A DNA stretch of 64,000 nt from Salvelinus alpinus (taxonomy: Eukaryota; Chordata; Actinopteri; Salmoniformes; Salmonidae). The stretch covers positions 22,248,969-22,312,968 of the forward strand of contig NC_092092.1 of NCBI RefSeq assembly GCF_045679555.1, read 5' to 3'. A program made the translations under genes and the position numbers. Position 1 is the stretch's first letter, and each line of letters opens with the position of its first letter. Below are positions 1,170 through 61,397 of the stretch, in pieces. Under the pieces are notes generated by a model, which saw nothing but the letters and a program-made list of their open reading frames with translations, made no database searches and had not been told where the DNA came from.

Positions 1170-4100
1170 GTAAGTGCCTTTAATACCAGAGTCCGATTAA
1201 GGGTGATGAAAGGGGGTTAAAGAATGGAAGGGGAAAAAGTAACAATCCTTTGTAGCGTGTGTTGCGTTCATATAATAGTTGCTATATTAGCTCCTTCGAG
1301 ACCCTGTAGTGCCATGGTCTGCATAGCATCGGGGCCTGCTACTGAACTGCAATACTACTGATCGAACGTTTACTTTCTGCCACCATGGCTAGCTAGCTTG
1401 ATTGCTTGGGTCAGTGTGTGTGTGTGCGCGCGCGAGATATTGTAGTCTTGCGAATGTTCTGTTGTGTTGCTGGCGACGGTCTTACATTCTGTAACCAGCA
1501 GCACAGATACATGTTGGTAGCCAGCCTATAGTCACCCTCGAGGAGTAAGTTGTCTACAGAGCTTGACAGATACATTGATCAGATAGTTGCTCGTATCGAG
1601 AGTAACGTGTCATGTCCGGTTTCATGAAGTTTATAGAAGTAATGGCTAATTTATGACAGTTGTTTCTTGGCTTTGGATATTTTTTTGTAGACTGTCTGTA
1701 AGCTATTACGATAAAAGGCAATGGGAAAATAGCCTAATGAAAATGCTAGGCTGAAATTAATGATGTATTATTGGATAGTCTAGACTAGAGTGATGTGTGT
1801 TGCAAGTTGTAATATTAATGTTGCAACATTGTTACCAACATTCACTAAGGCTATTTAATGATACATTCTACCATTTTCTGTGAAAGGAATATGTTCTGTG
1901 AAAAGTTATCGTACCGGAATCAGTAATATTGTAGCCTAATTATTTAGTTGCAACTCTAATTTTACAATTTTGCATGCAGAGTCGTTGAAACTTTGAAGGT
2001 TATGTATGAATAACATAATAAGATATCTGGCCAGAGGTTTGTTCTTGTAGCCTATATATTCGTGTTTCTCCTCCTCTTTCTTAAGTATAGGCTACACTCA
2101 GCATAAATAGCAATTAATTCCTAAAGGTTTTGATCTTGTAAATATTCATAATAAACGTGTGGATTTTAATACGCTTATGTCAACAGGAACATGTTGAATA
2201 TCTTGAATATCTATAGATATTAAGTTCATATCTATAAAGCCTACACAATAATGTGAATATGTTATATAGCCTACTGTTATTGTTTGATATGAATAATAAT
2301 GGACTGTATATAGATGCGTTATTGTGATCCACTCACATAGCAGAGAAATAAATAAATTCCTTGTGGAATAAAAAGACCACCTGAAAAATTCACACGGAAG
2401 AGTGAAATACTTTCACAAAAGAAAGCCGAGGCTGTAGTCAGTTTTAGCCGGCCCAACAAGGAATAGTGTAGCTTTTGTTTAGAATCTCACTCATGAGGTC
2501 TATACTATTGTTCCCATTGTTACTTTTTCATTTTTTTCTGTCAGTTGTATGAAGGGTTAGGGAAATGAATGATGGTAATGGTGAGGGCAGTGAACCGTAA
2601 AGAAGTCGAAAACAATATCAGCTGCGTGGGTCTGTCAGTTGCAAATGTGCTGTGCTGGCCTTTGTTTATGGTTACTGGAAGTTGAGCAGGCAGCAAAAAA
2701 AACTAAACTTGATGGTATTTAAATTCACTGCGCAGGAAACTAGTCTGGGAAACTAGGTTAGAAAAAGTGTTGGATTTCACACAGACCTATTTTCTAAAGT
2801 TCTCCTTTACTTTAGAGTAAAGAGGTAGGGGGAAGTTGGCTAGTTTTCCACACAAGCACCTCACTACATTTACCTCCTTTTTTTGAGAGAGGAGAGAAAA
2901 AGAAACAAAGTTGTATAAAGGAGAGGCTGGTGGCAAGAGTGTAGAGGAGTAGCATATGGCTGTAAAAGGAGCACAGCTGGAGGTAGCATTTCCATCTGAA
3001 CATGATGTCAGAGCAGCTGACAGGCTGCCATCCCCCAGTCTTTTATTCTAACGCACAGACTGGGAGTTAGTGTGTGTGCGGATCTGTGTGCAGGAGGAGG
3101 TATCTCATTCCCCTCCAACATCTCCTCCACTTTGCATCTGTCTCTCACAGTTAGCTTTTTTTCTCTCCTACCCCCTCATTGATTCTGCAAAAGAGCTGCA
3201 GCCGGCCCAGCTTTTCTACTACAGCGGACTTAATCAAGTTGATGCATACTGCAGGTACTGTCTATGGGAAAGGGTCCGGGGCACTGGGATGGTTTTGTTT
3301 TGTACGGGAAGCTCTGGCTTTTCCAGGGCTTTTCCCAGTGTCTGGCTACTTTTAGTCAGAGCTCTATGGAACGGGAAGTGAAAGAGTTGTATGTGTACAG
3401 TAGTTGTGTACTGTAGCTAAGCAGGAGCCTGGTGTTTTTGTTGTCAGGAAGAGGTTTCCAAGTGAGATTTTAACTGATCCATTTGTTTGTGGATATAGTT
3501 TTTCTTTGGTTTGTTGTGAGCAGGTTGGGCTTGGAGTTGATTGTTGGTCCTTTGATTGTTGAATGTATGTTGAAATTATTATCTTTTTTGTGGAAATTAT
3601 TTTTATTTGTTTCAACCAAAATATATTTCTTAATTTGTGTTAACTAAAAAAGCAATTTAACATGTTTTTATTGTCTGGTAAACACACAGTATTACTTTCT
3701 GCTACTATCAACATGTTTGATATTTTTCCTCAAAGTTATTCTGGCTAAAACATCCCAGAACCATGTAAAAAAAAATATCAATATGGTCATTTTTACTAAG
3801 AATAAGTCAATGTCTTAAATCTAAATGGCTGTGAAATTACTTGAAAGCCCAATGTCCTCTTTCCCAGGCTTGTGTTCATTTTTTCTGTTGGTGGTGACTA
3901 ATTTAGAACTTGCAGATTTGAGCTGCCTGAATTGGCTAGACAGCTGTAATCGCACTCCTTCTAGTCTTAATCTCTTTATCTGGGCAGCAGCTGCCATATG
4001 GCCCCAGTCAGCTGGATCAGATGTTTGTAAGCCTCCTTGTCTGTCCCTCTCTGTCCTCGCAGACCCCTAATTTGATCGCTGCTACCTTGTGAGTTGTCCT

Positions 4101-57051: not shown

Positions 57052-58191
57052 CCTTTTATTTATACACTTTCTTGCACTATGATCTATTCTTTGGGCACCA
57101 TGATGTTTTAATAAACATCTTTATTTTGCATTCAAGCTTCAGTTTTGGATCCAATTATTTTTCGACAGTGTGCGGGTCTCTGGACAGACACTTTACAGTA
57201 GTAAGGACCTTATAAGAGCGCAGACGGCCTCTGATCGTTTACAAATATAGCACCGTACAGGAAAAAATATTATTTTTGCAGATGTTCCACTCACAAGTTC
57301 TTTCAGTAATTGCAGTGATTTAATTTCATCGGAATCCAAAACGTTTTTTGTGCATTGCTCAGATTGTGCTTCTCAACAATTAATTTAACTTTTGATACTT
57401 AGGTATATTTTAGCAAGTACATTTACTTTTGATACTTAAGTATATTAAAACCAAATACTTTTACACTTTTACTTAAGCAGTACTTTACTGGGTTACATTC
57501 ACTTTTACTTGAGTCATTTTCTACTAAGGTATCTTTACTTTTACTCAAGTATGACAATTGGTACTTAGTTCTTAAACATTACACCTCTATATTGCATAAT
57601 TGAACAATACCACAAGTAAATAAACAAGAATCATTACAATCAAAATAATGTTTGCTTTTTTATTCTATATTTTATACGAGTAGGTTATTATGTTCCTGAC
57701 ATTCATTTACTTAAATTCCAACCATTTCTGAATGTGCTCTACTTTATAATAATCTTCATTTTATATAAAGTAGTAATTCTCTCTTGACCCAACCCCCCCA
57801 TACATTAGTGTTTTTATTTTGAAGGCAAAATCCGAAAACGATAGAACTACTATGCTATACTAGTCTAGTGTTGCTGCCGTGACGCTAATCTGAAAGGCAG
57901 TGTATGACACACTAGCGCCACAACAGTCAGAGAGTGAGGGGATTCGATGAATGCCTGGGCGAACCGGGTTAGCGTTGCATTCGTTTTGGAACGGGTGTGG
58001 TGAAACTGATGGTTTGTTGACAACTGTAGCATTTTTGCCATGCCTAACCCAGCTACGGACAGAAGTGACTTTACGTAGCAGTTTAGATTAATTAACATAA
58101 CAGGTTAGGAGAATGAGGTAAAGCCGATTAGGAAAACTGTTGTCCCCGAAGCGACAACAAGATGGAACTGTGCTCCATCTATTCTACAAGG
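57052..58191. other. Mostly repeats; no gene recognised
   Basis: The block 57380-57570 alternates ACTTTTACTTGAGTCATTTT, TATCTTTACTTTTACTCAAG and similar phrases, typical of a teleost non-autonomous DNA element end. The part from 57840 to 58180 is less AT-rich (GTTGTCCCCGAAGCGACAAC is a short palindrome at 58138) but has no coding frame I trust. Confidence 0.35.
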
Positions 58192-59682
58192 TACAAACAT
58201 CCGAGGTAAAGACAGATTCAGGTTGGATATTCGCCTGTAGTTTTCCTTACGTCCACCAACAACAGTTAGGGACCGTCAACATAGTGACAAATCTAAATGT
58301 TCAAATTATAATATCTCTTTAACCATTACTCTTAAACTTTCAAAATTGGTTCTAGCTAACCCGTTGGCATAGACACACATTGCACACACTTTGATTTTGT
58401 TGATTTACATCTCGCACTATTTAAAATTATTTATTTACATTTTTGAATTTCAATAGCTCTTTGGTCATGTGACCTACTGACTTCAAACAAGGTTCAGAAT
58501 GTACACTCAGTGGGCCTACACATTGCACACCCTTTAGTTTGTCCATTCTCATCTCATGCAATTTTACATACATTTTCTATGTTTTTCAGTGTTTCTAATT
58601 TCAATGGCTCCTTGGTCATGTGACCAACTGACCTCAAACAAGGTTCAGAATGTCCACTGACTACCCTTCTATATTGCACACCCTTTAGTTTGTCTATTTT
58701 CATCTCACATGTTTTTACATTAATTTTTCAAACGTTCTAATTTCAGAATGTCCACGGACTGAAGGAGACGGTCGCCGTGAGGCATCCAGTGCGGTAACGC
58801 GACAGATCCCGGGGGAAGCTGGCGGGAGCCCCGGGGAGAGTTCTCTTTTCTTGTAAAGGGAAGGGTGCCCTGGAACGAGTTGGCCCCGAGGGAGTGGGCC
58901 AAGCCCTGGGAAGCGTTGCGGTTTCGGCAGCGTCCGGTGAACTCTCTCTGGCCCTTGAAAATCCGGGGGAGAGGGTGTAAATCTCACGCCGGGCCGTACC
59001 CGTATACGCATCAGGTCTCAAAGGGGAACAGCCTTGTAATAACAATGTAGGTAAGGGGAGTTGGCATTCTGAACCTTGTTTGAGGTCAGTAGGTCACATG
59101 ACCAAGGAGCTCTTGAAATTAGAAACATTGAAACATTGAAAATTAATGTAAAATCGTTTGAGATGAAAAGGGACAAACTAAAGGATGTGCAATATAGAAG
59201 AGTAGTCACTGGACATTCTGAACCTTGTTTGAGTCCAGTAGGTCACATGACGAAGGAGCTATTAAAATTTGAAAGTTTGAAAAATTCATGTAAAATCGTG
59301 TGAGATGAAAAGGGACAAACTAAAGGGTATGCAATGTGTAGGCCCACTGAGCGTACATTCTGAACCTTGTCTGAGGTCAGTTTGTCACATGACCAAGGAG
59401 CTTTTGAAATTCGATTGTAAAAAATGTTTGTACTTTTTTACTCTCCCTAACTAATTCAACTAGGAATAAAAAATGCTGCTCACATTTCCACATGTTTATT
59501 AGCTTTGCATAGCGAATTAACATCCAAATCGTGAAAATAAGACCTGTGTAATGTTGTGCTCAATTTTTCCAACATCATGACACTTATTTGGAGTCTGTGG
59601 CTCAAGTGGTTTGAAAGCTGTTGAGGTTTGAAAGCTCAAATATCCGTTGAATATCCAACCTGAGTCTTTACCTCGGTGTACA
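58192..59682. repeat. Palindromic array of ~150-bp units around an rRNA fragment
   Basis: The left arm has units containing GGTCATGTGACC, CAAACAAGGTTCAGAATGT and CACACCCTTTAGTTTGTC, with starts at about 58463 and 58613. The right arm has the same unit inverted (GAACCTTGTTTGAGG, GTCACATGACCAAGG, GGGACAAACTAAAGG) at about 59091, 59241 and 59383. Outermost, CCGAGGTAAAGAC with GGTTGGATATTC (58200-58232) is inverted as GAATATCCAACC and GTCTTTACCTCGG (59649-59678). The two arms meet on the 28S-like segment 58764-59065. Unit similarity is high but not perfect. Confidence 0.85.
58764..59065 (+). pseudogene. 28S rRNA fragment (about 300 bp)
   Basis: The segment carries unmistakable large-subunit rRNA text: CCAGTGCGGTAACGCGAC, CGGGAGCCCCGGGGAGAGTT, CTCTTTTCTT, GGCCCTTGAAAATCCGGGGG, AGAGGGTGTAAATCTC, CGCCGGGCCGTACCC and ACAATGTAGGTAAGGGGAG. 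It is in sense on the plus strand. Differences from the conserved vertebrate sequence are mainly C to T or G to A changes and a short deletion before ACAATG, so it is a non-functional copy. It starts and stops abruptly against the inverted repeat arms. Open frames of about 100 codons here (58715-59045) are by-products of its GC-rich composition. Confidence 0.88.
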
Positions 59683-59796
59683 AACAGTCAGTCCCAACAA
59701 ATCATCAGTATCATAACAGAGGACAACAGACTTGAAGTTTTGGTTGGTCGTATGGGATGTGTGGGTGCTGTACTACAGATTGAGATACTTTTAGTC

Positions 59797-60446
59797 ATGT
59801 AGTGTATGTGGACACCTGCTCGTTGAAAACAGCTCATTCCAAGATAGGGAGTTGGTCCCCCCTTTGCTGCAATAACAGCCTTCACTCTTCTGGGAAGGCT
59901 TTCCACTAGATGTTGGAACATTGCTGCAGGGACTTGCTTCCACAAGAGCATTAGTGAGGTCAGGCACTGATGTTTGGCGATTAGGCTCTCAGTTGGTGTT
60001 CCAATTCATCCCAAAAATGTTTGATGGGGCTGAGGTCAGGGCTCTGTGCAGGCCAGTAAAGTTCTTCCACACCGATCTCGACAAACAATTTCTGTATGGA
60101 TCTCGCTTTGTGCACTGGGCATCGTCATGCTTAAACAGGAAAGGGCCTTCCCCAAACTGTTCCCACAAAGTTGGAATCACATAATTATCTAGAATGTCAT
60201 TGTATGCTGTAGCGTTAAGATTTCCCTTCACTGGAACTAAGGGGCCAGGTCCAAACCATGAAAAACATCCCCAGACCATTATTCCTCCTCCACCAAACTT
60301 TACAGTTGACACTATGTAGCGTTCTACTGGCATCTGCCAAACCCAGATTTGTCCATCGGACTGCCAGATGGTGAAGCTTGATTCCTCACTCCAGAGAACG
60401 TGTTTCCACTGCTCCACTGAGTCCAATGGCGGTGAGCTTTGGACTA
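59797..60446 (-). mobile_element. Tc1-like remnant cut by LINE insertion
   Basis: It begins AGTGTATGTGGACACCTGCT (a terminus shared with 23164-23900). The minus-strand frame 59989-60426 gives transposase text: [20 protein letters not shown] around the first Asp, [20 protein letters not shown], and [15 protein letters not shown] at the second Asp, then a frame change before the Glu box. The homology stops where the LINE tail begins at about 60446, so the rest should lie beyond the window's right end. Confidence 0.78.
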
Positions 60447-60475
60447 AATTTTTATTTCAACTTTATTTAACCAAG

Positions 60476-60955
60476 GGCCTCCCGGGTGGCGCAGTGGTCT
60501 AGGGCACTGCATCGCAGTGCTAACTGCGCCACCAGAGTCTCTGGGTTCGCGCCCAGGCTCTGTCGCAGCCGGCCGCGACCGGGGGGTCCGTGGGGCGACG
60601 CACAATTGGCCTAGCGTCGCCCGGGTTAGGGAGGGTTTGGCCGGTAGGGATATCCTTGTCTCATCGCGCTCCAGCGACTCCTGTGGCGGGCCGGGCGCAG
60701 TGCGCGCTAACCAAGGGGGCCAGGTACACGGTGTTTCCTCCGACACATTGGTGGGGCTGGCTTCCGGGTTGGAGGCGCGCTGTGTTAAGAAGCAGTGCGG
60801 CTTGGTTGGGTTGTGCTTCGGAGGACGCATGGCTTTCGACCTTCGTCTCTCCCGAGCCCGTACGGGAGTTGTAGCGATGAGACAAGATAGTAATTACTAG
60901 CGATTGGATACCACAAAAAGGGGGGAGAAAATGGGATAAAAAAATAAATAAAAAA
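60476..60955 (+). mobile_element. Long SINE with tRNA-like head and 17-bp target duplication
   Basis: It starts GGCCTCCCGGGTGGCGCAGT. TGGCGCAGTGG fits a pol III A box and GGTTCGCGCCC a B box at tRNA-like spacing. A GC-rich body of about 400 bp follows, with an A-rich end (AAAAAAATAAATAAAAAAA). AACTTTATTTAACCAAG occurs on both sides (60459-60475 and 60956-60972) without mismatch and belongs to the LINE tail it landed in. It is a repeat, not a working tRNA gene. Confidence 0.88.
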
Positions 60956-61397
60956 AACTTTATTTAACCAAGTTGGCTAGTTGAGAACAAGTTCTCATTT
61001 GCAACTGCGACCTGGCCAAGATAAAGCAAAGCAGTTCGACACATACAACAACACAGACTTACACATGGATTAAACAAACATACAATCAATAATACAATAG
61101 AAAAATCTATATACAGCATGTGCAAATGAGGTAGGGTAAGAGAGGTAAGGCAATAAATAGGCCATGGTGGCAAAGTAATTACAATATAGCAATTAAACAC
61201 TGGAACGGTAGGATGTGCAGAAGATGAATGTGCAATTTGAGATACTGGGGTGCAGAGGAGCAAGACAAATAAATAAATACACTATGGGGTAGATGGGATG
61301 GGCTATTTACAGATGAGCTATGTACAGGTGCAGTGATCTGTGAGCTGCTCTGACAGCTGGTGCTTAAAGCTAGCGAGGGAGGTAAGAGTCTCCAGCT

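Follow-up and report, generated by a model that had tools for sequence, protein, structure and literature searches.

The window is a 64-kb stretch of the Salvelinus alpinus genome (contig C7, 22248969–22312968) and belongs to a 2.37-Gb assembly of 928 contigs, which was the genome searched throughout. It contains, at 58200–59677, a complete, non-autonomous DNA transposon of the foldback type that is internally deleted and bears a segment of 28S rRNA (Table 1). The extent of the element is supported by its terminal inverted repeat, by its target duplication and by genome matches that start and end at these positions. The original prediction had placed it at 58192–59682, coordinates that fall inside the left and right target duplications, respectively. 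To the right of the element, 59830–60440 looks like a Tc1-type transposon remnant, which is followed by what we take to be a tRNA-derived SINE typical of salmonids (60474–60960).

Table 1. Features of the 28S-bearing element and its flanks, in positions of the window.
Feature	Positions	Strand	Basis
Left target-site duplication GTACAAACA	58191–58199	.	identical 9 bp at 59678–59686
Foldback-type transposon copy, 28S-bearing	58200–59677	+	terminal inverted repeat, target duplication, match boundaries
Left end (LE): ~32-bp terminal inverted repeat and unique sequence	58200–58378	+	start points of copies
Left arm: ~150-bp tandem units (partial; 58441–58591; 58592–58742)	58379–58756	+	
Last unit of left arm, truncated, ending CAGAATGTCCACG at the 28S junction	within 58379–58756	+	
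28S rRNA segment (core), captured	58757–59066	+	Rfam match, genome-wide matches, shared left junction
Right arm: inverted units 59065–59213, 59214–59355 and partial 59356–59414	59065–59414	−	
Right end (RE): unique sequence and terminal inverted repeat	59415–59677	+	
Right target-site duplication GTACAAACA	59678–59686	.	perfect 9-bp match to the left one

Termini, arms and core of the element

Apart from the window copy, 37 of the 40 scored left-end copies start at query positions 4–12 (58195–58203), and the remaining two at query positions 24 and 28. The short inverted ends of most copies start with ACCGAGGTAAAGAC; the termini read ACCGAGG...CCTCGGT in most copies compared, with T in place of the first A in the window copy. 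Nine copies have both termini readable, and all nine are flanked by 9-bp repeats matching at 7 or more positions (judged by eye). The repeats are identical in the window copy, L003, L021 and L029, match at eight of nine positions in L013, L022, L034 and L056 (in L013 and L034 only with one extra base beside the terminus), and at seven of nine in L051. Defined termini with a target duplication of ~9 bp, as in foldback elements, are thus present in every two-termini copy. The duplication also lies in the 8–10-bp range of Mutator, a feature that is not exclusive to Mutator, and its length suggests the Mutator/FB group as the superfamily of the element.

The inverted arms of ~150-bp units that had been predicted are clearly present, with six inverted arm pairs (including 194 nt at 77% and 146 nt at 88% complementarity) and tandem arrays of period 151 (58446–58727) and 142 (59065–59411). 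Two left units were counted correctly, with an additional partial one; the right arm consists of two full units and a partial third rather than three. As a single DNA strand, 58441–59414 folds to −296.5 kcal/mol; 20 shuffles average −119.5 (sd 6.75). The resulting z of −26 rules out a chance inverted repeat. The predicted fold is a long stem with the 28S segment in its loop, in agreement with the proposal that the rRNA is held as the spacer of an inverted element, and the arrangement of tandem-repeat inverted arms enclosing a variable middle is that of foldback transposons. The identity of the core is confirmed by Rfam: LSU_rRNA_eukarya (58778–58986, model 1630–1836, 88.4 bits, E 2e-19) is the sole match at gathering score in the 64 kb.

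Junctions of the core and the longer cargo

A genome search with the core returned 95 candidates, 40 of which were scored, with at least 40 matches at 79–100%; 30 were taken as loci. Junctions were compared in a set of 42 scored loci that excludes L001 and L039 (the window again), L052 (the place of L014), L079 and L080 (the places of L023 and L034) and L065 (cargo fragments only). The arm/28S junction, ...CAGAATGTCCACG followed directly by GACTGGCGGAGA, is present in 31 of the 42 loci, including 25 of the 30 core-search loci, and was not found at the other 11. Among the core-search misses, ~490 bp of other sequence separates arm from core in L013 and L038, the junction is shortened in L030, and no arm was found in L018 and L035, the latter retaining 28S-like sequence upstream. 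The common left junction in 25 of the 30 core-search loci points to one capture, followed by amplification.

The right side behaves differently. More 28S follows here in 25 of the other 29 core-search loci. L022 and L029 skip ahead to 28S sequence further on, the core of L026 meets an arm unit at another base than that of the window copy, and L037 exits to other sequence. Among the 30 core-search loci, the right 28S/arm junction is thus private to the window copy. The left junction is therefore ancestral, the right junction is a later, private deletion, and the ~300-bp core is what is left of a cargo that was once longer. A symmetrical capture, with the arms meeting exactly on both sides of the 28S as first described, is ruled out by this asymmetry. 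The core is indeed bounded by the words CAGAATG and CATTCTG, although of the two junctions other copies have the left one only. By the test that had been proposed for an rDNA-carrying family, many copies do have an rRNA endpoint in common, namely the left one.

In the long copies (six mapped copies, among others), the cargo runs in 28S from the left junction to ...GACTCTCTTAAGG, continues with an insert X (~1.0 kb in L017, 1.3 kb in L081), and then returns to 28S for its final part and extends past the 3' end of 28S; inverted arm units follow. Uninterrupted 28S as the whole cargo is ruled out, since X interrupts it in these copies. X is missing where the 28S jumps in L022 and L029; L029 keeps the 3' part of 28S, which reaches model position 3399 of 3401, and its cargo extends ~480 bp past the 28S 3' end. 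In L087, the cargo past the 28S 3' end (395–717) is expanded into repeats spaced ~28 bp apart. A single derived deletion that fuses 28S to X is common to 17 of the 42 loci, and the shortest cargoes read include those of the window copy, L026 and L022.

Insert X begins at the word CTCTTAAGG in five loci, where the word is intact (L017, L081) or has one or two bases changed (L012, L082, L087), and is followed by a TAGCC 3' flank in four others (L010, L020, L033, L065). We take CTCTTAAGG/TAGCC to be the R2 insertion site, which places X at the R2 target site of 28S. In the same four loci, the stretch preceding TAGCCAAATGCC repeats, in diverged form, the 28S that lies immediately upstream of the R2 site, so that the end of X imitates this part of 28S, with differences shared between the four. 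X is not a second intact 28S, to which it is similar in two short patches only (74–75%). The X-specific search gave at least 72 candidates, of which 40 were scored, and the ten loci returned (L079–L088) all contain arm units and other cargo; among the other matches, those within known loci were read, and X may also occur outside the element.

No reverse transcriptase or other long ORF was found in X of L017 and L023, and one X ORF had no Pfam match (E up to 1); Rfam (E up to 5) returned neither an R2 nor an HDV-like family for L012 and L017. With its position at the R2 site but neither a long ORF nor an R2-type Rfam match, X is referred to here simply as an R2-site insert. It resembles R2 retrotransposons in its start and in the flank after it, and differs from them in the missing ORF and ribozyme family match and in its 28S-like end. 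R2 is listed for Atlantic salmon and has been recovered from teleosts (part of PMC5035012); 28S duplications at R2 junctions have also been described, at the 5' end (part of PMC3774820).

An intact native 28S gene was not found in the assembly, which may lack the rDNA arrays. Three genome places contain a 28-base pattern spanning the R2 site (up to one mismatch), all of them short 28S fragments. These (L075, C24:27901686; L076, C6:68229477; L077, C18:1709608) each lie in a different context and have ~86–92 bp in common across the uninterrupted site. The C24 region L078, inspected for a native 28S unit, holds a short 28S fragment only. Sequence immediately downstream of the R2 site in 28S matches 26 places, of which 3 are short uninterrupted fragments, 12 are near element-search places and 11 are elsewhere (e.g. 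C13:866241, C17:14375281 and C29:45371159); the last may represent R2 insertions, fragments of rDNA or additional elements.

Copies in the genome and orientation of the cargo

Searches with the whole interval (527 first-look candidates, 40 scored, at least 196 matches) and with the left end only (at least 243 candidates, 40 scored) give lower bounds for the family, as up to 40 candidates were scored in each. Thirty left-end loci of ~3.2 kb (L039–L068, including the window itself and the place of L014) were inspected for cargo within the locus, and five of them hold cargo of the 28S type, which therefore marks a subfamily. Different centres unrelated to 28S are common to several family members (L040, L041, L004, L060, L062, L053 and L047), and a separate one is common to L045 and L066; this suggests that cargo was acquired more than once or that these centres survive from the original middle. 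The 28S carriers are thus a single subfamily within a family whose centres vary. Two left-end loci contain Tc1-like sequence, judged from ORFs.

Copies bearing the 28S core or X occur at 62 or more places on 31 contigs after merging of the core and X searches, or at 60 if the two places without arms (L018, L035) are excluded. Twenty-two of these places are known from X alone; eight were read (L081–L088) and 14 were assigned by the X match alone. Two close pairs exist: C6 at 56.195 and 56.266 Mb (L023, L034; 71 kb apart), which represents one insertion with a nearly identical right flank and thus a local segmental duplication, and C24 at 38.18 and 38.23 Mb. Thirty core copies diverge from their own majority by a median of 5.6%, or 3.8% outside CpG (both without L018 and L035), and the window copy is among the most diverged (8.5%). 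The 9-bp duplications and the many dispersed copies point to transposition and confirm the suggestion of a mobile element carrying rDNA, making a satellite, a template switch or an assembly error needless as explanations. A satellite is also ruled out by the few units per copy.

No transposase or autonomous copy was found: in addition to the X ORF, four ORFs from core-less element loci were checked against Pfam (E up to 1) without a match, and the element is probably mobilised in trans. Nine two-ended copies have 28S between LE and RE and show the organisation of Pack-TYPE elements, namely a host gene fragment between the inverted ends of a non-autonomous transposon.

Because LE and RE differ in sequence, the direction of the cargo can be read. 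It was determinable in 32 of the 42 loci (10 have no readable end) and is evenly divided, 16:16. On the junction side, LE was read in 13 loci and RE in 15, and the end at the far side gave another 3 LE and 1 RE by inference; the ratio is 15:16 if L023 and L034 are counted once. Each of the nine 28S copies with two ends pairs an LE with an RE, as do L051 and L056. Mixed cargo directions with one end of each type are as expected if the arms flip the loop. The 17 copies with the derived deletion include both directions (LE in 9 plus 1 inferred, RE in 5, 2 unreadable), so that at least one turn occurred after that deletion. All four determinable R2-junction copies and both copies of the L022/L029 type have the RE orientation. 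The number of turns is not countable, since the core tree is near-star with no starred branch; orientation labels placed on it (14 LE and 13 RE rows) require 9 changes, compared with a shuffled mean of 9.3–9.4, and show no clustering.

The simplest reading of these counts would be that recombination between the arms turns the loop over. The two orientations might instead stem from swapping of ends between elements, as ectopic recombination among copies has been reported for Galileo (part of PMC3573991). Such swapping should also yield LE-LE and RE-RE copies, whereas all those with both ends are LE-RE. Same-end products might be immobile and hence unseen, and end swapping is regarded as possible, if somewhat unlikely.

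Origin of the rDNA cargo and related elements

We estimate a probability of about 0.87 that a non-autonomous foldback DNA transposon, mobilised in trans, took up a long piece of rDNA at the DNA level. The ends of the element, the 9-bp duplications, the dispersal, the one common 28S junction and the longer cargo elsewhere are supported directly. The captured piece would have comprised the 3' half of a 28S gene already interrupted by an insert at the R2 site, together with the 28S 3' end and what follows it. Its acquisition may have taken place within the element, through repair of a break or filling of a gap. Copies with the cargo would then have spread by transposition, and internal deletions, some at short homologies, probably shrank the cargo, with the window copy as one such derivative. 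The inverted arms may recombine and invert the loop, which would leave 28S in both directions relative to the ends. No function is seen for the 28S piece, which is most likely passenger DNA. A more speculative version, in which the arms are an inversion device, an R2-type break or insertion in the donor helped the capture, and X is an R2-dependent, non-coding retroelement that imitates the target with its 3' end, appears doubtful as a whole.

The private right junction could be taken as a sign that the 28S was captured once by chance at the window locus, or that this locus is misassembled. Core or companion insert are found at about 60 places, dozens of which have the same left junction and anatomy, some with target duplications of their own, and an isolated event is thus extremely unlikely. 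rRNA-derived SINEs exist, and the three short 28S fragments that span the R2 site elsewhere and the 11 further places that match 28S downstream of it would be compatible with a mobile unit that is itself an rRNA-derived, SINE-like retroposon of 28S with incidental foldback arms. However, the target duplications are at the foldback ends (the only ends inspected), the cargo of L029 passes well beyond the 28S 3' end, and the 28S edge meets the identical arm-unit position in 31 of the 42 loci, which makes a retroposon very improbable. Repeated independent captures at a preferred site are conceivable in that abundant 28S could serve as a donor many times, but the left junction and the derived deletion are shared so widely that common descent is simpler, and we consider independent captures highly unlikely. 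Uptake of one long rDNA piece by a foldback transposon remains the preferred explanation.

The closest known elements are Tetris/FB, Tm1 (Mutator/Foldback) and the Pack-TYPE elements of plants. Tetris is a foldback element of Drosophila virilis (part of PMC4079207), which has inverted ends with ~220-bp internal tandem repeats, a variable non-coding middle, 8–10-bp target duplications and no autonomous copy found, and which its authors placed in Mutator. The fish element differs in its ~142–151-bp units, its apparently distinct termini and, in one subfamily, a middle that is a long rDNA fragment present in both directions. Tm1 Mutator/Foldback elements of root-knot nematodes share composite, repeat-filled inverted ends of variable length and 8–10-bp, mostly 9-bp, target duplications, and a Tm1 subgroup bears a histone-hairpin motif as a further likeness; they differ in their 13–15-bp units, in a known transposase-encoding member and in that rDNA cargo is not described in the portion of the report cited here (PMC3169594). 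Galileo of Drosophila (P superfamily) also has long inverted ends with internal repetition, and shows chimeric copies as well as internal regions that have recombined, but its target duplications are 7 bp long and its transposase is of the P type (part of PMC3573991). Pack-TYPE elements (Pack-MULEs) of plants are likewise non-autonomous, have inverted ends and take up host sequence, which they amplify; the sequence described there is coding DNA, in contrast to an rRNA gene within foldback arms in an animal (part of PMC8903248).

The original statement that no named element has such a layout does not apply to the foldback frame, which is already known from Foldback, Tetris and Tm1; what was not found described is the rDNA cargo and its free orientation. 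Among titles and abstract openings of open-licence PubMed Central papers, no description of a foldback element carrying 28S was found.

Dispersed 28S-bearing copies can confuse 28S probes, primers and the filtering of rRNA reads. Supernumerary 28S signals on whitefish chromosomes have been ascribed to retrotransposons, on evidence described there as indirect (part of PMC3585787). The fish element does not explain that case, because the extra part in whitefish includes the 28S 5' end; it provides sequence evidence that a DNA transposon can distribute a portion of an rDNA unit over dozens of sites on the chromosomes. If the arms keep inverting the loop, one captured rDNA segment would give rise to a near-equal mix of directions across the genome. 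The near-equal cargo directions are a countable test of inverted-arm recombination inside eukaryotic foldback transposons.
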